DNA from: a virus
DNA: 24,728 nucleotides
Direction: 5' to 3' (one strand)
IMG/VR virus record: IMGVR_UViG_3300047300_000446
Coordinates: 1-24,728 of that record
The notes below the pieces were generated by a model. That model worked only from the letters and a program-made list of their open reading frames with translations, was not told the origin of the DNA and did not search any database. Positions 5,088 through 17,592 of the stretch are shown piece by piece. The position numbers and the translations under genes are program-made. The first letter of the stretch is position 1; each line of letters begins with the position of its first letter.

Positions 5088-5311
5088 CAAAGTCTGAGCT
5101 ATTCAAGATGATAAAGATGTCCAATATCAAGCGGAAAGATATTGTGCTTGATGATGGCAAAGCTGTGAGAAGATATAGAGCAAAGATTGAAGATAAGTAT
5201 GTGGCATATGAGACTGATGGCACTCCATGCAGACCTCACTTATCTGTGTATGAATTCATTGCTTTTGCTAAAGCAAATTATATCACAAGATTAGTGAATG
5301 ATACATTATGA
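5084..5311 (+). CDS. hypothetical protein, 75 aa
   Basis: Not recognised. Very basic N-terminus (KMIKMSNIKRKDIVLDDGKA), a short beta-like centre (RRYRAKIEDKYVAYETDGTP) and a helical C-terminus. It is the gene immediately before the large terminase, joined by ATGA, the usual slot of the small terminase subunit; however it is shorter than usual small terminases and no helix-turn-helix is evident, so I do not call it one. Confidence 0.6.
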   Translation: MTKSELFKMIKMSNIKRKDIVLDDGKAVRRYRAKIEDKYVAYETDGTPCRPHLSVYEFIAFAKANYITRLVNDTL

Positions 5312-6723
5312 TTGAATTTCTCCCCAAGCAAAAGGAAGCATTGGTATATCTACACAATACATCTCCAGCCACAATGATTCTCTATGGTGGAGCTGCTGGT
5401 GGCGGCAAGACAAGATTGGGATGTATATGGCAGATACAAAGGAGATTGAAATATCCTGGCACTAGGTCACTCATTGGCAGAGCAAAGCTTGACACATTGA
5501 AAAAGACCACAATGGCCAGCTTTTTTGAAACCACCAAGCAAATGGGATTGCAAGCTGGCATTCACTACACATACAATCAGCAAAGCAATACAATCACTTT
5601 TTTCAATGGCTCAATCATTGTGCTTGCTGACCTTGCATACAAGCCATCTGATCCACACTATCAAGATCTTGGTGGATTGGAGCTCACTGATGCATTCATT
5701 GATGAAGCTGCTGAAGTTCATCCAGCTGCCATCACTACCACTACATCTCGTATCAGATACAAACTCACCAACTTTTGCAAGGAGTGCGCAGCTGAGAATC
5801 TTGATCAGGGAGAAATCAGTGCAAGAGATGACAAAGGTAAAGCTGTGGAATGGAGATGTGGAGCTTGTGGAGATTGCAATGGTGGACTAGTGCCCAAGAC
5901 ATTGATGTCATGCAATCCAGCAAAAGGATATCTATACAATGAATTCTATCACCCACATAGAGAAGGAATTCTTACACCTGATAAGGCATTCATTCAGGCA
6001 TTCTCCACAGATAACTACATGCTACCATCTGCATACATTGATGTGCTGAATAGATTGCCTGAAGTTGACAGAAAAAGATTGCTAGATGGCGATTGGGATT
6101 TTGATACATCAGATGACAGATTCTATTCATATGAGGAATTGGCCAGAGCATTCAGGGAGAAATCTGACCAATCAAATGAATGGTATATCACAGCTGATAT
6201 TGCACGATTGGGAAAGGACAGAACTATCATCTGCATCTGGCATGGAGCTCATCTTGAAAGGATGGAAAGCTTCCTCCATAAAAGAGTGAATGAAGTTGCT
6301 GACATCATCAAAGGATTCATGGATCAATACAAGATACCACTGCGCAATGTGCTGGCAGATGAGGATGGCATTGGAGGAGGAGTATGCGACATCACGCGAT
6401 GTGTTGGATTCATGAATGGCTCTAAGCCATACAGAGATGCATACAAAAATCTCAAGGCTGATTGCTACTATAAATTGGGTGAAATGATTGACCAGAATCA
6501 AATCACATTCAATGCTAAGTACAAGGATGTAATCATCAAGGAGCTGGAGTTGGTAAGGAGAGATAGAGTTGGTCAAGATGGCAAGCTGATGATAATCTCA
6601 AAGCAAGCCATTGCAGCCAAAACTGGTGGCCTATCTCCTGATGTCGCTGATGCCATAATGATGCGCAGCTATTTTGAAGTATCAGGAGGAAATGGAGTAT
6701 ATCACATTAGAGGAAGGTACTAA
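5308..6723 (+). CDS. terL: terminase large subunit (TerL)
   Basis: 471 aa, the ATP-driven packaging motor with its nuclease. ATPase domain: Walker A GGAAGGGKT (27-35), Walker B AFIDE with D132-E133, coupling motif SCNP (201-204). Nuclease domain (RNase H fold): ITADIAR with D297, LADEDGIGG with D351/D353, and LSPDVADA with D445/D448 supply the metal ligands. Between Walker B and the coupling motif is an insertion (about 152-195) with C157-x2-C160 and C184-x2-C187 plus C190, which looks like a zinc ribbon; family members I recall have only a short loop there. It starts by ATGA overlap and its stop overlaps the stop of the convergent late operon by 4 nt. No small subunit was recognised. Confidence 0.95.
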   Translation: MIEFLPKQKEALVYLHNTSPATMILYGGAAGGGKTRLGCIWQIQRRLKYPGTRSLIGRAKLDTLKKTTMASFFETTKQMGLQAGIHYTYNQQSNTITFFNGSIIVLADLAYKPSDPHYQDLGGLELTDAFIDEAAEVHPAAITTTTSRIRYKLTNFCKECAAENLDQGEISARDDKGKAVEWRCGACGDCNGGLVPKTLMSCNPAKGYLYNEFYHPHREGILTPDKAFIQAFSTDNYMLPSAYIDVLNRLPEVDRKRLLDGDWDFDTSDDRFYSYEELARAFREKSDQSNEWYITADIARLGKDRTIICIWHGAHLERMESFLHKRVNEVADIIKGFMDQYKIPLRNVLADEDGIGGGVCDITRCVGFMNGSKPYRDAYKNLKADCYYKLGEMIDQNQITFNAKYKDVIIKELELVRRDRVGQDGKLMIISKQAIAAKTGGLSPDVADAIMMRSYFEVSGGNGVYHIRGRY

Positions 6724-9903: not shown

Positions 9904-12234
9904 TTATTCCAATAATCTAGTGGGAGTTGCTGCTGTAGCATAGTCATATTCACCATCCTTGATGGGCACTCCCTTGATGATTGCTTCAATCACCCCAATC
10001 TTAGTATAGTTCTCTGGCTCATCTGGGAGGAATCCCTTCTGACCTTTACCAGTTGCTAACTTTCTTTTGAAAATCAATCTCCTGAAGGCATGATAGCAAT
10101 TTTTTCCTCCCTTGAATTTCCAGATATCGTACACACTTTCACCAGCTTTTGCAAATTGAGAATTCACTCCGCTGTCACTCATGTTGAATTCAGGTGAATC
10201 AAGAGATAGATCCTCCCATCTGAATACAATTCCTTGTTGAGACATGCTCACCATCTTTTTGCAGAATTCTCTGCTATTATCTCTTAGGCCCAATGTATAG
10301 GCATATCTCACTTTGTAGAGACCAGCATCCATCCTTGATCTTTTGTCCAAGCCTGATGCATATTTTTTATATCCACTAGCTTGCATTGTATTGATGATTT
10401 CATGCTCTGTATCAATATCATCAATTCTCTCCTCAGATACAAGCTCATATTCATCCTCACTCAATTGCTCTCCAATTGTATCAAGATGATTCACCCACCA
10501 CTGCTCTTGCTCAGGTGAGAAATCATCATCTTCAGCACTCATGCATAGGCATGTGCTTTGTTCCATTCTCTTCAGGATTCTATTTGCCCAATCTCTGCCC
10601 GGATCTCCTCCCCACAATTGCCATGCTATTCTCCCATTGGATGGGAATCCATCCTCTCCCTGATTCCACCCTTGAGCTTGCTTATCCACTTCATGTCTTG
10701 AAAAGTAGCTGCTCATTCTTTGGATTGTATCAAGAGATAAATTTCGTTTATTACTTATATCACGAGCTCTGGCTACACCAATCTCTGTCCCTCCTCTGCC
10801 ATATTCAGATCTCCATTTCAATCCCAATTCTGCCTCTGCAGCCATCTCATCTGTTGGCTCAAAAGATTCCTCAGCTAAATGGTCTTTTTTTTTTAATGAT
10901 TGCACCACTTGAGCTGGATCAATCACCACCGGTGAAAGATTGTCAAAGATGGAATTTACCACATCTTCTGATAGCATTGGGAATGATGCTTTTGTGATTG
11001 CCTTTGCTGATGGAATAGTCAGCACATTGGCTGTGGTTTGCACAATGATTTCAAGCAATGATGCAATCTGTGCTCCATTCAATGCTTGAGATGCCACATC
11101 TACAGATGTCACAGCTCCAGCACCATCTGATACCACAGTTTGCTCTTGCATCAAGATGTCATTTTGCACAATCTCAATCTCAGCAGCAGCTCCATTGTAT
11201 TCCAATGCCTGAGCAATGCCATCCAAGATGATGCGCTGGAATGGCTCAATCACTTGCTTTGAGAATATCTGCAATGCAGTTTTCATCTCATCAGTATTGC
11301 TTCCCAATCCACCACCATCTCTCACGCCCATCAGGATAGGAGATGTCACTCTATGAGCTACAATGATTTGATCTCTTGCTTCAGTGCTCAGATAGTCATA
11401 TGTCTTGTCTGCATTATTAGTTGGGAATGGCTCAAGCTTTGGAGCTTCATCTGCATTGCGATTGAATGTCGCAAAGAATTTTCCAGCATTGGATGTGCCA
11501 CTGATATTTCTCTCAAGGTCTCTGATGATTGCTCTCTCAGCTTCTGGTGATGGCACTCCATTGGTGAATGCGATGTGAAAAGATGGAAACAATCCATTGA
11601 GAATATTGTTCACATGGAATTCACTGATATGCTTTGTGAGCTCAATCCAATTGATTGCTGAATAATAGTCAGGTCTTGGATAGTACAAGCTGCCCGGAGT
11701 AAGCATATCACAGAAAATCACTTGTCTTGCTTGGGGATTTAATGGATCAAATACTGGCACATATTCAGGTCTATTTTTGACCTTCCTTGTATCTTCCCAA
11801 TCGCGTGAATACCAAATGCCAGTGATGCAATCATTCTCATCAGATACAGCTCTTCTGCAGTTCTCAAATGGAAGGTGATTCACTTGCACAATTGTGCGCA
11901 TGTCCATGCTCATAATGAGCTCCAAATAGAATCCTCCTTGCATCTTCAAATCAATGGAAATAGATGGCAATATATTGTTGAGATTCCACTTGTCAATCCA
12001 TTGCTGAGTGCTAGGATTCATTGATTGAAATCCTTTCCCAGCAATCATGAATGCAATCGAATTGATCAGTGATCCATGCACTGATGAATTGGAATACAAA
12101 TCAATAATGTATTGTGGAAATATATTTTGCTCACCATATTCTGCCCACCCTTTTGGGGTTTCCTTTTCGATGGGTTCAATCTTATTGTATTTGGCCATCT
12201 GTATATTGACCATCTTTGCACTATTCTCAGCCAT
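9904..12234 (-). CDS. portal protein with long C-terminal extension
   Basis: 776 aa. Residues 1 to about 450 are the portal core, the dodecameric ring of the packaging vertex: SVHGSLINSIAFMIAGKGF (51-69), GGFYLELIMSM (100-110), a YYSAINWIELT clip-like region and VAHRVTSPILMGVRDG (292-307), the conserved portal segment. From 451 there is an extension with two modules: ARDISNKRNLS...GRIAWQLWGGDPG (489-546), a block seen in several phage head proteins, and a Cys/His-containing end (REFCKKMVSMSQQ, ...VYDIWKFKGGKNCYHAFRR, 655-719). A 10-A run sits exactly at the junction (codons 447-450). The usual portal length is 400-520 aa. It starts 8 nt inside the preceding gene and precedes the connector. 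Confidence 0.85.
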   Translation of the reverse strand: MAENSAKMVNIQMAKYNKIEPIEKETPKGWAEYGEQNIFPQYIIDLYSNSSVHGSLINSIAFMIAGKGFQSMNPSTQQWIDKWNLNNILPSISIDLKMQGGFYLELIMSMDMRTIVQVNHLPFENCRRAVSDENDCITGIWYSRDWEDTRKVKNRPEYVPVFDPLNPQARQVIFCDMLTPGSLYYPRPDYYSAINWIELTKHISEFHVNNILNGLFPSFHIAFTNGVPSPEAERAIIRDLERNISGTSNAGKFFATFNRNADEAPKLEPFPTNNADKTYDYLSTEARDQIIVAHRVTSPILMGVRDGGGLGSNTDEMKTALQIFSKQVIEPFQRIILDGIAQALEYNGAAAEIEIVQNDILMQEQTVVSDGAGAVTSVDVASQALNGAQIASLLEIIVQTTANVLTIPSAKAITKASFPMLSEDVVNSIFDNLSPVVIDPAQVVQSLKKKDHLAEESFEPTDEMAAEAELGLKWRSEYGRGGTEIGVARARDISNKRNLSLDTIQRMSSYFSRHEVDKQAQGWNQGEDGFPSNGRIAWQLWGGDPGRDWANRILKRMEQSTCLCMSAEDDDFSPEQEQWWVNHLDTIGEQLSEDEYELVSEERIDDIDTEHEIINTMQASGYKKYASGLDKRSRMDAGLYKVRYAYTLGLRDNSREFCKKMVSMSQQGIVFRWEDLSLDSPEFNMSDSGVNSQFAKAGESVYDIWKFKGGKNCYHAFRRLIFKRKLATGKGQKGFLPDEPENYTKIGVIEAIIKGVPIKDGEYDYATAATPTRLLE
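10885..10894 (-). other. A10 homopolymer in portal gene (possible slippage site)
   Basis: On the coding (-) strand ten A in a row span the end of Leu447 (TTA) and Lys448-450. Loss of one A would give KKKTI then TAG; gain of one A would give KKKRPFS then TGA. Either would end a protein of 452-454 aa, the size of a normal portal. It is the longest homopolymer I saw in the window. Confidence 0.5.
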
Positions 12235-13264: not shown

Positions 13265-14212
13265 TTAGTATCCAATTGCGATGTCACCAGCAAATCCTAC
13301 TTGTGTACCTACGCGATATTTCATCACTACACGCACATTGTCAGATCCATCTGTGTTGCTCATGTCAATCAATCGAACTTCATTCATATCAGATACCAAA
13401 TCAGTACCCACATGCAAGTTGCTTGGCTGAGCAAACATGATCACATCATTGCTAAATCCGGGACATACATAGATTTCATATCCATATACGTTATTGATCA
13501 TTTCCAATGATGCTGGAGTCAATGGGCCACCTACTGACAATTGATTCATCAAAGCTTGCTTGTACAATTGAGCTGTCTTGGGGCTCATGTAGCACTTAGT
13601 GTTTGGTGATCCAATCAATGCAGTTGGGATGGTAGCAACCACACCATCAATTGCAGTCATGATGTTAGCTGTAGTCAATGCAGCAGCAATGTTGTAATCT
13701 GGAGCACCTTTGGCTGCAGCAATCTTGGTCAATAGACCATCGAAAGATGTGAAGCCAGAAGCACCACCTACAGATGCACTGAAGTTACCTACCCAGATTT
13801 GAAATTCAATGTTAGCAGAGATTTCCAATGCTAATCTAGCCATCAAGAAATCAGCAAATGTGCTGGGCAATGTATCATTGATGAATCCAGCTCCAGTGGT
13901 TTTTGCTTCCCATTGACGAGCAAATTGATTTTTGCACAATTCCAAATTGGTTTTAAGGTCTTTCACTTGCAATACAGCTTCAGTCAAGCCAGCAGTGGAT
14001 ACACCTTTTTCAAAATCACAATTATCACCACCTGATGCATCTTGCACCAATGATGCCAATGCTAATTTGGAGATGTTTGCTTTGTACTTTACATTCTCAT
14101 GTAATGTCACATATCCCTTTGCGATAGTATCGCCAGAGATGATTGCAGCTGCTACATAGGGCAGTGCTAATTCACCAGCATAATTGCTTGTGATTGATAA
14201 ATCTGATGCCAT
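13265..14212 (-). CDS. major capsid protein (HK97-like fold)
   Basis: 315 aa, Ala/Gly-rich, without signal peptide or enzyme motif. Order of features fits HK97-type capsids of Bacteroidota phages: helical N-arm (SNYAGELALPYVAAAIISGD), a region FEKGVSTAGLTEAVLQVKDL, the FADFLMARLALEISANIEFQ spine-like helix (138-157), KCYMSPKTAQLYKQALMNQL (206-225) and VYGYEIYVCPGFSND near the A-domain. It directly follows protease and scaffold genes in transcription order, the standard head-assembly set. An A-rich leader precedes its ATG and a strong hairpin terminator follows, as expected for the most abundant virion protein. No delta-domain precursor is fused to it; the scaffold is separate. Confidence 0.88.
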   Translation of the reverse strand: MASDLSITSNYAGELALPYVAAAIISGDTIAKGYVTLHENVKYKANISKLALASLVQDASGGDNCDFEKGVSTAGLTEAVLQVKDLKTNLELCKNQFARQWEAKTTGAGFINDTLPSTFADFLMARLALEISANIEFQIWVGNFSASVGGASGFTSFDGLLTKIAAAKGAPDYNIAAALTTANIMTAIDGVVATIPTALIGSPNTKCYMSPKTAQLYKQALMNQLSVGGPLTPASLEMINNVYGYEIYVCPGFSNDVIMFAQPSNLHVGTDLVSDMNEVRLIDMSNTDGSDNVRVVMKYRVGTQVGFAGDIAIGY

Positions 14213-14878: not shown

Positions 14879-15124
14879 TTATCCCTTTCTTTTTTCAATA
14901 AGTTTGTCAAGGATGGTCATCCCCATTCCACTGCCAGCCATCAAGCACAATGAATCGTACATGAATTCTGGGCAGATGTGATTCTCATCTGATGCCACAG
15001 CAATGAATGCCATGATGATGACCATGAGCAATGTGAAGAGTGATGCAGTGCGCTTGCTTGATACATCACTACCTGAGCTGAGCAATCTTGACAGCCAATT
15101 CTTAGTTGATTCCGAGCTCATCAA
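14879..15124 (-). CDS. two-TM membrane protein, holin-like
   Basis: 81 aa. A polar N-terminus (SSESTKNWLSRLLSSGSDVS), TM helix about 27-45 (ASLFTLLMVIIMAFIAVA), a short acidic loop, second hydrophobic segment 53-73 (MYDSLCLMAGSGMGMTILDK) and a basic end EKRKG. Size and topology fit a small holin, but it is sandwiched between prohead protease and scaffold genes, not beside the lysis enzyme, so this is uncertain. The start overlaps the protease stop by 23 nt; ATG 15121 is the next choice. Confidence 0.6.
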   Translation of the reverse strand: MMSSESTKNWLSRLLSSGSDVSSKRTASLFTLLMVIIMAFIAVASDENHICPEFMYDSLCLMAGSGMGMTILDKLIEKRKG

Positions 15125-15713
15125 TCAATTCATTCAAGATATCATCCACCTCATTCATTGGCATCATGGTTTCTTCTGATGGTTTAAACCATCCTTCCAA
15201 AGAGAATCCCTTGAATGTGCCTTGCTTGACCTCATCCCATATCTCATCAGATGTGACATGACCTCCAATGTACCATGTGCCGGGAGGAGTAGTGAATCCA
15301 AGCTCTTTGCTTTTGTCCATCTCTCCCATCTGTATCCATGATTCAACAAAATCAATTCCATCTGTGGCATTGAGTTCATTGTGCTCAAGATTTGCATTCT
15401 GATGCATATTCAATCGCAGCCATTTGTGCGCCACTTTTTTGATGACATCAGCTGGATATTGTGCATACCATTCATCCTTTGTATCAGGATCATATCTGTA
15501 GATGAGCTGATCAGGAATCAGCACCGGGCCATACAGCATGCGCTGCTCATTGCTTTCAACAGCTTTGAATTTCACTTGTTGCTTTGCACTTTTTGACAAT
15601 GCAACAAAATCCAGCATGATTGCTGGCTCTTTTACCAATGACATGCAGTACACTCCATCCAAGAGATTCTGCTCATCAATGTCATAGGTCACTATCTTGA
15701 TTTTCTTATCCAT
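15102..15713 (-). CDS. prohead protease, XkdF-like serine peptidase
   Basis: 203 aa from ATG 15713, which overlaps the tape-measure stop by 8 nt (ATGGATAA); upstream in-frame residues are the shadow of that gene. Family pattern: LLDGVYCMSLVKEPAIMLDF (17-36), YGPVLIPDQLIYR (61-73), NANLEHNEL with His111, VESW with Ser125, GFTTPPGTWYIGGHV (139-153), and KGFSLEG (168-174). These are the features of the XkdF-like peptidases of phage head modules, in which the His and Ser form the active site. It would cleave scaffold and capsid during maturation. Scaffold and capsid genes follow downstream, the expected order. Confidence 0.85.
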   Translation of the reverse strand: MDKKIKIVTYDIDEQNLLDGVYCMSLVKEPAIMLDFVALSKSAKQQVKFKAVESNEQRMLYGPVLIPDQLIYRYDPDTKDEWYAQYPADVIKKVAHKWLRLNMHQNANLEHNELNATDGIDFVESWIQMGEMDKSKELGFTTPPGTWYIGGHVTSDEIWDEVKQGTFKGFSLEGWFKPSEETMMPMNEVDDILNELIDELGIN

Positions 15714-17592
15714 TATTATAAATGTTAGCTTGATTTTTGATTTTGAAATCAGCTTGCTGAGCAGAGCTGACAGCTCCAGATACCACATATGTCTGCAATG
15801 GCTGTGGCTTTGTTGCTTGATTATTCAGGAATGAAAGATTGAGTGCATTAGGTGATGCTGGTGATGGGCCAGATGATGCTCCACCTCTATTGCTTCCTCC
15901 CACATTTGTAGATGGTGGAGTGCCTCCTCCAAATTGAGTTTGATTGATCTTCACCAAATTTGCCACACCAGCAGCTGCCACTACAGCAGCAGATGCAATC
16001 TTTTGTACCATTGTCACATTGTCTGGCGCAGAGAAAGCTCCAACAATTCCACTGGCCATATTGATGACAGCCATTGCTTTCTGTAGTTTTTTATTCCTCT
16101 CAAATGCTCTTCGCTGTGATGCTTCATCACCTTTGGCAGTTGCTTCATTGAGTGATGTCAGCACAGCCATTGCTTGCTGCGCAAGTTTTAATCCTGAATT
16201 CCACTTGTCTGCCTGAATTTGCTTGAGCTTCTCAGCTTGCTCTTTTGCAGCTGCAGCTTCAGCATCATCATATGTTTTATTGATTTCCTCTTTTTTCTTT
16301 CGCATCTCTTCCTCAAGCACTGATGCATCCAATCCATATTTGTTGGCTGTCTCTATTTTGACATTGAATTCATCTTGCACAGCTTGCAATTCAGCAGCTC
16401 TTGCTCCCATTCTGATATTCTCAATCTCCTGAGATAATTCCTCCTCTTCTGTGATTGCTTCCATCCTCATCTGATTCAATAAGTCAGCATTGGCTTTTGC
16501 CACATCTTGCTGTCTCTTGATTTCAGCATCTGCATATTTTTGGCGAATAGCATTCTGCTCTGCAGTCAATGAATCAGTGAGTGCTTTCTCTTGGGCAGCA
16601 TTGCCATGTGCCAGCTTCATCTTTGCATCATAGTTCACTTGCACTTGTCTCAGCTCTCTGTCCATTTCAGTGAGTGATGCTTGGAATCTCTTCTCATTCT
16701 CTTCCTTAAGAAAGTCAGTCACTTGCTTCTGATCAGATTGAATCTGCTCTCTTCTCTTTTTTGCTTCCTCATTGGCCTTCTCTTGATCCGCTTTCGCATA
16801 TCTATCATTGATTGATTGTAGCTCTTCCCTGTATAGCTTCTGAATCTGACTACCATCTTGACCAAATTCTGTGGCCTTATCCAGCATCTCACCATATTTC
16901 TTTTTCAGGTCATAGATTTCCTTCTCCTGAGCAGATAGATTCTTAGTGCGATTTCTTTCAGATGCTTCATCAAGGAATTTGTCCATATCCTCTCTGAATT
17001 TCTTTACATCTTCCATTCTCTTTTTTGCAGCTTCAGCTCTTGCTTCAGCTTGACTATCTGTCAATCCAATGGCATCACTGAATGCTATCATGCCTTTCTT
17101 AACAGCATCCAATGTATCACCAATGAATGAGAATACCTTGCCCACCAATCCTCCAGCTTTTGTCAATGCTTCAAAGTTCATGACAATGGCAATGATGGCT
17201 GTTGCTAGGAGGAAGATTGGATTTGTGAGCAATGCTTTACCCAATGATCCCAATCCACTTGTCACTGATTTGATACCATTCCCCATCTCCTTGAATGAGA
17301 TGCTCTTCACATTCGTGCCCATCCTCTTCAGAGATTCCCCAAATCCAGTCAAATCTAGAGATGAAAGCTGTCCCTGAGCTATGACCAAATTATTCCCAAA
17401 GGTCTCAATGGCTGGCCCAGCATTCGCGCTGACAGCTTCCTTGACATCCTTCATCTTATCTCTCAGCTCTCCAGCTCGCGCAGCTAATTTGATGAATTCT
17501 TCACTGCCAGTATCTAGCATTGCAAGCTGATCCTGAATCCCCTTCAGCTCTGATTTGATTGCTTTTAGTCCAGTTAGAATTGGCTCTGCCAT
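15706..17592 (-). CDS. tail tape measure protein
   Basis: 628 aa. Short helical N-terminus, then Gly/Leu-rich amphipathic region, a clear membrane segment NPIFLLATAIIAIVMNF (124-140), a very long coiled coil rich in Lys/Glu/Gln (about 175-490, for example AEARAEAAKKRMEDVKKFRE), a second hydrophobic Ala-rich region (about 505-552) and a Gly/Pro/Ser/Asn-rich low-complexity tail. This is the layout of tape measures, whose helix sets tail length and which help DNA cross the inner membrane. At about 1.5 angstrom per helical residue the tail would be under 100 nm, a rough family rule. Start overlaps the previous gene by 19 nt. Confidence 0.88.
   Translation of the reverse strand: MAEPILTGLKAIKSELKGIQDQLAMLDTGSEEFIKLAARAGELRDKMKDVKEAVSANAGPAIETFGNNLVIAQGQLSSLDLTGFGESLKRMGTNVKSISFKEMGNGIKSVTSGLGSLGKALLTNPIFLLATAIIAIVMNFEALTKAGGLVGKVFSFIGDTLDAVKKGMIAFSDAIGLTDSQAEARAEAAKKRMEDVKKFREDMDKFLDEASERNRTKNLSAQEKEIYDLKKKYGEMLDKATEFGQDGSQIQKLYREELQSINDRYAKADQEKANEEAKKRREQIQSDQKQVTDFLKEENEKRFQASLTEMDRELRQVQVNYDAKMKLAHGNAAQEKALTDSLTAEQNAIRQKYADAEIKRQQDVAKANADLLNQMRMEAITEEEELSQEIENIRMGARAAELQAVQDEFNVKIETANKYGLDASVLEEEMRKKKEEINKTYDDAEAAAAKEQAEKLKQIQADKWNSGLKLAQQAMAVLTSLNEATAKGDEASQRRAFERNKKLQKAMAVINMASGIVGAFSAPDNVTMVQKIASAAVVAAAGVANLVKINQTQFGGGTPPSTNVGGSNRGGASSGPSPASPNALNLSFLNNQATKPQPLQTYVVSGAVSSAQQADFKIKNQANIYNNG

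Follow-up and report, generated by a model that had tools for sequence, protein, structure and literature searches.

A conserved poly-A run in a phage portal gene as a likely site of transcriptional slippage yielding short and long portal subunits

In a portal gene carried by a 24.7-kb virus record (24,728 nucleotides in all, hereafter "the window"), a run of ten A's lies at the joint between the portal core and a long C-terminal extension. We consider it likely that this run is a conserved site of programmed transcriptional slippage, through which a single gene would yield both short and long portal subunits. For the family of portals to which this gene belongs, the following are shown: the run itself, the fact that it is conserved as nucleotides, the stop codons that follow in both shifted frames, the optional domains of the extension, and the absence of frame-breaking indels at the run. 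The slippage, its efficiency and the occurrence of both forms in virions are inferred from sequence, and there are no RNA or protein data.

The portal gene occupies positions 9904-12234 of the window on the minus strand, and its single open reading frame encodes a long form of 776 aa, core plus extension. The criterion for portal-family membership, a profile match over the core, is met: residues 9-367 are matched by two PHROG portal families, phrog_33693 (E=9e-58) and phrog_11226 (E=4e-38). The 776-aa portal is also matched by TIGR01540 (portal_PBSX, E=7e-12), and its core by PF04860, each under its curated cut-off; a sequence search with the portal against solved structures (PDB) gave nothing useful. 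The genomic place among head and packaging genes, as expected of a tailed-phage portal, is met as well, the window also holding genes for a terminase large subunit (5308-6723), a structural protein (13265-14212), a protease-like protein (15102-15788) and a tape-measure-like protein (15706-17592). It should be mentioned that, as called, the protease-like ORF has 83 bases in common with the end of the tape-measure-like ORF, and that the true start of the protease-like ORF possibly lies further in.

The ten A's are on the sense strand at 10894-10885 (10885-10894, minus strand) and span codons 447-450 of the portal ORF, in the context GTG CAA TCA TTA AAA AAA AAA GAC CAT TTA GCT GAG; the slippery stretch proper is TTA AAA AAA AAA G. 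If one A is lost, the reading becomes KKKTI followed by TAG (10875-10877) and a portal of 452 aa is predicted; if one A is gained, which gives the same frame as a -1 ribosomal shift, it becomes KKKRPFS followed by TGA (10871-10873), with a predicted portal of 454 aa. The portal core that would be retained in such a short form corresponds to 10895-12234. A first-pass annotation, made without database searches, had placed the run at these codons, had read the same two immediate stops with products of 452-454 aa, and had called the run the longest homopolymer; the first two claims held exactly and the third held for the window, where the runner-up is an A8. Dinucleotide shuffles of the window predict 0.08 A10/T10 runs, and 5 of 100 shuffles contained one or more. 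The run is thus only moderately surprising in a single window, and the weight of the case comes from its conservation.

Relatives were gathered by scanning viral contigs, which gave several hundred; 281 loci span the site, and clustering at 95% core identity reduced them to 83 lineages spanning the joint. In the first set of relatives, every joint-spanning locus except one (L088) had A9-A12 at this place. Across the 83 lineages, at least nine A's are present at the joint in 59 (31 with A10, 24 with A11, two with A12 and two with A9). On a tree of the cores, the run is found in 54 of the 58 lineages of the window's clade and in 5 of the 25 lineages of a clade resembling Nonlabens phage P12024S; one of the latter (L290) has its A10 inside a long inserted stretch (EKKN), where it is probably coincidental, and was excluded from the deep tests. 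The four lineages of the window's clade without the run (L088, L167, L187, and L228) all lack the Lys triplet. Much else changes around the run. Its codon phase shifts 11 times on the core tree, and an optional extension domain switches state 12 times. The codon that precedes it may be TTA, GTA, CTA, ATA, GAA, CAA, GGA or others, and the core upstream of it comes in two lengths, about 380 and about 450 aa, depending on an optional module of roughly 65 aa. Because the run persists through phase shifts, turnover of the flanking codons, and loss of the following domain or the preceding module, it outlives everything around it.

An independent control came from a scan that took the extension domain, and not the portal, as its anchor; it found 80 copies. 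All 75 copies fused to a portal core in one ORF had A9-A12 shortly upstream, and neither of the two copies in non-portal proteins had a run; of the remainder, two copies at contig edges look like the run-bearing ones and one is cut off. In the 332 kb of coding DNA of the portal-bearing loci, only six other runs of nine or more A's occur. One criterion of transcriptional slippage, a coding-strand homopolymer of at least nine A's kept at the nucleotide level, is therefore met.

The codons indicate that the bases, and not merely the amino acids, are kept. The first two Lys codons of the run are AAA in 116 cases and AAG in none (58 lineages), in comparison with an AAA:AAG ratio of 1305:1080 (AAG 45%) for the other Lys codons of the same portal genes. 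When only 16 lineages that are at most 70% identical are considered, the count is still 32 AAA to 0 AAG (Fisher p about 8e-9). Where the last Lys is coded AAG, the preceding codon ends in AA and ten A's are preserved. Elsewhere in the same genes, none of 45 KKK triplets forms a run, a count that omits triplets right at the gene's 3' terminus, and an RKKKN stretch near residue 155 is typically coded AAA AAG AAA. From the amino acids one would expect 15.9 sites with at least nine A's, and 59 are observed; these 59 sites had been chosen for having the run, so this last comparison is on selected sites. We saw no lineage that had KKK at the joint but lacked the run, and no relatives with K-K(AAG)-K or K-R-K there. 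The first-pass annotation had named the use of AAG codons by homologues as a refutation of its idea of a built-in ratio of short to long portals; the test favours that idea, since the first two codons are AAA in all 58 lineages and A9-A12 persists as the phase and the flanks change. The idea is thus supported by conservation and codon use, with slippage, its efficiency and both forms in virions still inferred.

As a separate observation, a second A9 run is found at the extreme 3' end of the portal gene (RKKK-stop) at 6377-6385 of L006 and at 2448-2456 of L031, where slippage would alter the tail of the protein only.

The stops in the shifted frames are closer than coding alone would place them. 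After loss of one A, the first stop comes at a mean of 6.7 codons, against 10.6 for random synonymous coding (58 lineages), and after gain of one A at 3.5 against 7.0. Stop proximity holds when lineages are clustered at 80, 70 and 60%, with P 0.013 or less per frame; over four cluster depths in all, P is at most 0.013 for the frame of the TAG and at most 0.012 for that of the TGA. The lineages share ancestry, so that these P values, derived from a synonymous null, are approximate only. Since the stops are near in both shifted frames, which run for at most 28 codons, slippage in either direction predicts a truncated portal and not an alternative tail. A further criterion of transcriptional slippage, close stops in both shifted frames, is thereby met. 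Among 54 family members the predicted slipped products measure 371-484 aa and the long forms 539-1171 aa. The portal of Bacteroides phage BS-TP3, a relative without the extension, has 395 aa, and the portal profile matches in the window stop near residue 367; the earlier claim that the run lies where a normal-size portal would end is supported by the BS-TP3 portal and by the sizes of the slipped products.

The extension of the window's portal is about 320 aa long, and Pfam and NCBIfam searches gave no name for it. Two parts can be recognized. The optional domain (residues 465-562, positions 10549-10842, minus strand) matches part of phrog_2859 (E=5e-25), and the C-terminal domain (residues ~640-725, positions 10060-10317, minus strand) is defined by invariant alignment columns (R.FC..M ... 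GG.NC.H). The C-terminal domain is present in 278 of the 307 loci with a portal core and is common to family members with and without the run; the far C-terminal part of the window's portal is also shared with Nonlabens phage P12024S. The phrog_2859-like domain also opens the "major capsid protein" genes of CRP-811 and S-CBS3, and a slippery run was looked for at the junction of the portal and "major capsid" genes of CRP-811, with none found. It should also be mentioned that this domain (WGGD.G..WA) is portable, being found at major capsid starts, in proteases, in genes annotated as methyltransferases, and in the present portals (positions 10549-10842 of the window; L009, L010, and L012).

Several P12024S-like portals (L287, L290, L292, and L296) carry large inserts in the extension, which open with a repeated LAGFDP.QKR..DG.WGSG linker and add several hundred aa. 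By eye, the inserts include ADP-ribosyltransferase-like (VYHGSTHDFTEF) and JAB-like (THNHPNNSSFSRQDL) motifs, and L292 and L296 have the C-terminal domain in a different frame. It is possible that the portal tail is a slot for cargo domains.

The relatives of the window's terminase and structural protein are found in phages of Flavobacterium, Cellulophaga, Bacteroides and Nonlabens, and we therefore infer that the virus probably infects a member of this phylum, the Bacteroidota. Searching about 85,000 species genomes with patterns revealed no prophage relatives, and hence no host genome or named host is tied to the run; metagenomic virus contigs, by contrast, gave hundreds of relatives, which suggests that the portal family is mainly lytic and uncultured. 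A DNA-level search of deposited phages found nothing, and no cultured phage with the run was found, all run-bearing contigs being metagenomic.

We propose the following mechanism. RNA polymerase would slip on the A10 run, leaving a share of the transcripts with one or more A's extra or missing. Transcripts that are unslipped, or changed by a multiple of three, would encode the long 776-aa portal, and the remaining transcripts would stop within a few codons and give a portal of normal size, about 452-454 aa, without the extension. One gene would in this way supply two portal subunits in a set ratio. A portal ring has twelve subunits, and the C-terminal extension, which would face the capsid interior if this portal is like others, would presumably be borne by only some of them. 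The extension may be bulky in twelve copies, and having fewer copies through slippage would allow the ring to form and yet keep the extension. Polymerase slippage at the run (including whether a Bacteroidota RNA polymerase slips on A10), its frequency, the entry of both forms into one ring, and the function of the extension are all inferred. Against the two-form portal being essential in every relative, the extension occurs with no run in four lineages of the window's clade and in most of the P12024S-like lineages; a two-form ring is therefore favoured, not obligatory.

That transcription can slip on tracts of at least nine A's is established. In Thermus dnaX, an A9 run with stops in both frames gives about half short product (PMC1088944, PMC5009743). 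As in Thermus thermophilus dnaX (tau/gamma), the portal run is on the sense strand of one long ORF, with the in-frame product long and the products of both other frames short (PMC1088944, PMC5009743); unlike the portal, that gene encodes a cellular clamp loader and has A9 where the portal family has A10-A11, and its slippage has been demonstrated whereas that of the portal is inferred. In Citrobacter tssM1, with A11, RT-PCR products had 10-15 A's, and both protein forms and their ratio were needed for function (PMC4256274). The tssM genes of Citrobacter rodentium and Yersinia resemble the portal in that a poly-A run (A11) yields a long and a short version of a single structural component within a large assembly (PMC4256274); the difference is that slippage in tssM restores the full-length frame, the unslipped product being short, whereas the unslipped portal is long. 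Among phages, T7/T3 gene 10A/10B, the head and tail proteins of A2 and PSA, and lambda G/GT likewise derive two versions of a virion or assembly protein from a single gene at a set ratio, one short and one with a C-terminal extension (PMC5009743); these, however, use ribosomal frameshifting, usually gain the extension in another frame, and are capsid or tail genes. The portal of Nonlabens phage P12024S/L has the same core and the same C-terminal domain in one ORF, but has no A run and no inserted domain, and a single form of 560 aa is predicted.

The main rival explanation is programmed -1 ribosomal frameshifting on an A_AAA_AAA or A_AAA_AAG heptamer within the run, which would give the same short portal. 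A model is E. coli dnaX, whose -1 shift uses an A-rich heptamer with a stop right after the shift to make a short product (see also PMC5009743). In favour of this rival, a usable heptamer is present in every site and the -1-frame stop, the one reached on gain of an A, is very close, as given above; the criterion of an X_XXY_YYZ heptamer with a close -1-frame stop is thus met. Folding near the run is also slightly more stable than in shuffled sequences (mean z -0.68 downstream and about -0.6 upstream, versus -0.13, or about -0.1, at control places) and could serve ribosomal frameshifting. However, a heptamer needs only seven bases and two Lys codons, whereas the run always has at least nine A's, and ten or more in 57 of 59 sites. 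Nor does this mechanism need nearer-than-expected stops in the other shifted frame, which are nevertheless present. The E. coli site is an A6G heptamer with stimulators; the criterion of a Shine-Dalgarno-like stimulator upstream is not met here, 56 of the 59 sites having none and three having one. We therefore regard ribosomal frameshifting as unlikely, though it is the strongest of the alternatives.

A second rival holds that KKK is a basic linker, selected at the protein level between the portal core and the extension, with incidental codons. KKK is indeed found at nearly all run-bearing sites, between two protein parts, and Lys is coded AAA in 55-58% of cases generally. On the contrary, AAG is entirely absent from the first two Lys codons in 58 lineages, the codon before the run has A as its last base in nearly all cases, other KKK triplets of these genes are interrupted by AAG, and, where KKK is lost, the run is lost too, KKK never standing at the joint without it. 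This reading, and also the neutral Lys run that the first-pass annotation had offered as an alternative, are made very unlikely by the codon statistics.

We give equally little credence to a third possibility, that the run is a recombination joint between modules (the core, the optional 65-aa module and the optional domain), kept as an exchange point. The modules on either side do come and go, the domain changing state repeatedly on the tree, and the cores upstream of the run fall into two length groups, near 380 and 450 aa. However, ten identical bases are a poor homology tract for recombination, an exchange point has no need of close stops in both other frames, and L167, L187, L228 and L088 keep the joint without the run.

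Two further explanations are all but excluded. A-rich leaders aid initiation in Bacteroidota, and the stretch might be a translation start signal for a separate internal extension protein, as members with the domain carry an in-frame ATG some 30-60 nt beyond the run; however, an in-frame ATG, GTG or TTG lies 3-18 nt past the run in only 1 of 59 sites, and members that lack the domain usually reach their first in-frame ATG only after about 200 nt, so that the spacing of start codons largely refutes an internal start. Long homopolymers mutate and are error-prone, which would allow DNA-level phase variation or an assembly artefact (the latter also raised by the first-pass annotation, and very unlikely with the frame intact at the run in every contig), but in over 200 loci from many samples the run and the extension are in frame with no break at the run, the extension is in frame with the core in 276 of 278 loci with both breaks away from the run, and the criterion for a phase-variable repeat, frame-changing length differences between close relatives, is not met at the run in any locus.

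Recoded phage capsid and tail genes are known, through ribosomal frameshifting (PMC5009743). The open-access literature that we searched contains no report of a portal gene with transcriptional slippage or a programmed frameshift, and none in which a structural gene of a phage shows poly-A transcriptional slippage as a conserved trait, though a report that we have not seen is possible; PMC5009743, as far as it was consulted, does not mention portals. The kind of site is therefore known, both as poly-A slippage and as recoded virion genes, and its use in a phage portal gene appears to be new, on the understanding that slippage itself is inferred and has not been observed.

If slippage is confirmed, it would explain how large and variable domains can be attached to a ring that must still assemble, and it would offer a simple test system for portal subunit ratio and symmetry. 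It would also mean that gene callers, and the cloning of such portals, will overlook a second product. A bolder reading, likewise inferred and for which we see no clear balance of evidence either way, is that throughout an entire phage family the portal ring is assembled from subunits of two sizes, in a ratio set by polymerase slippage on poly-A, so that only part of a nominally twelve-fold ring carries an exchangeable C-terminal cargo or packaging domain. Were that reading true, the stoichiometry of a virion machine, and possibly its asymmetry as well, would depend on polymerase slippage.
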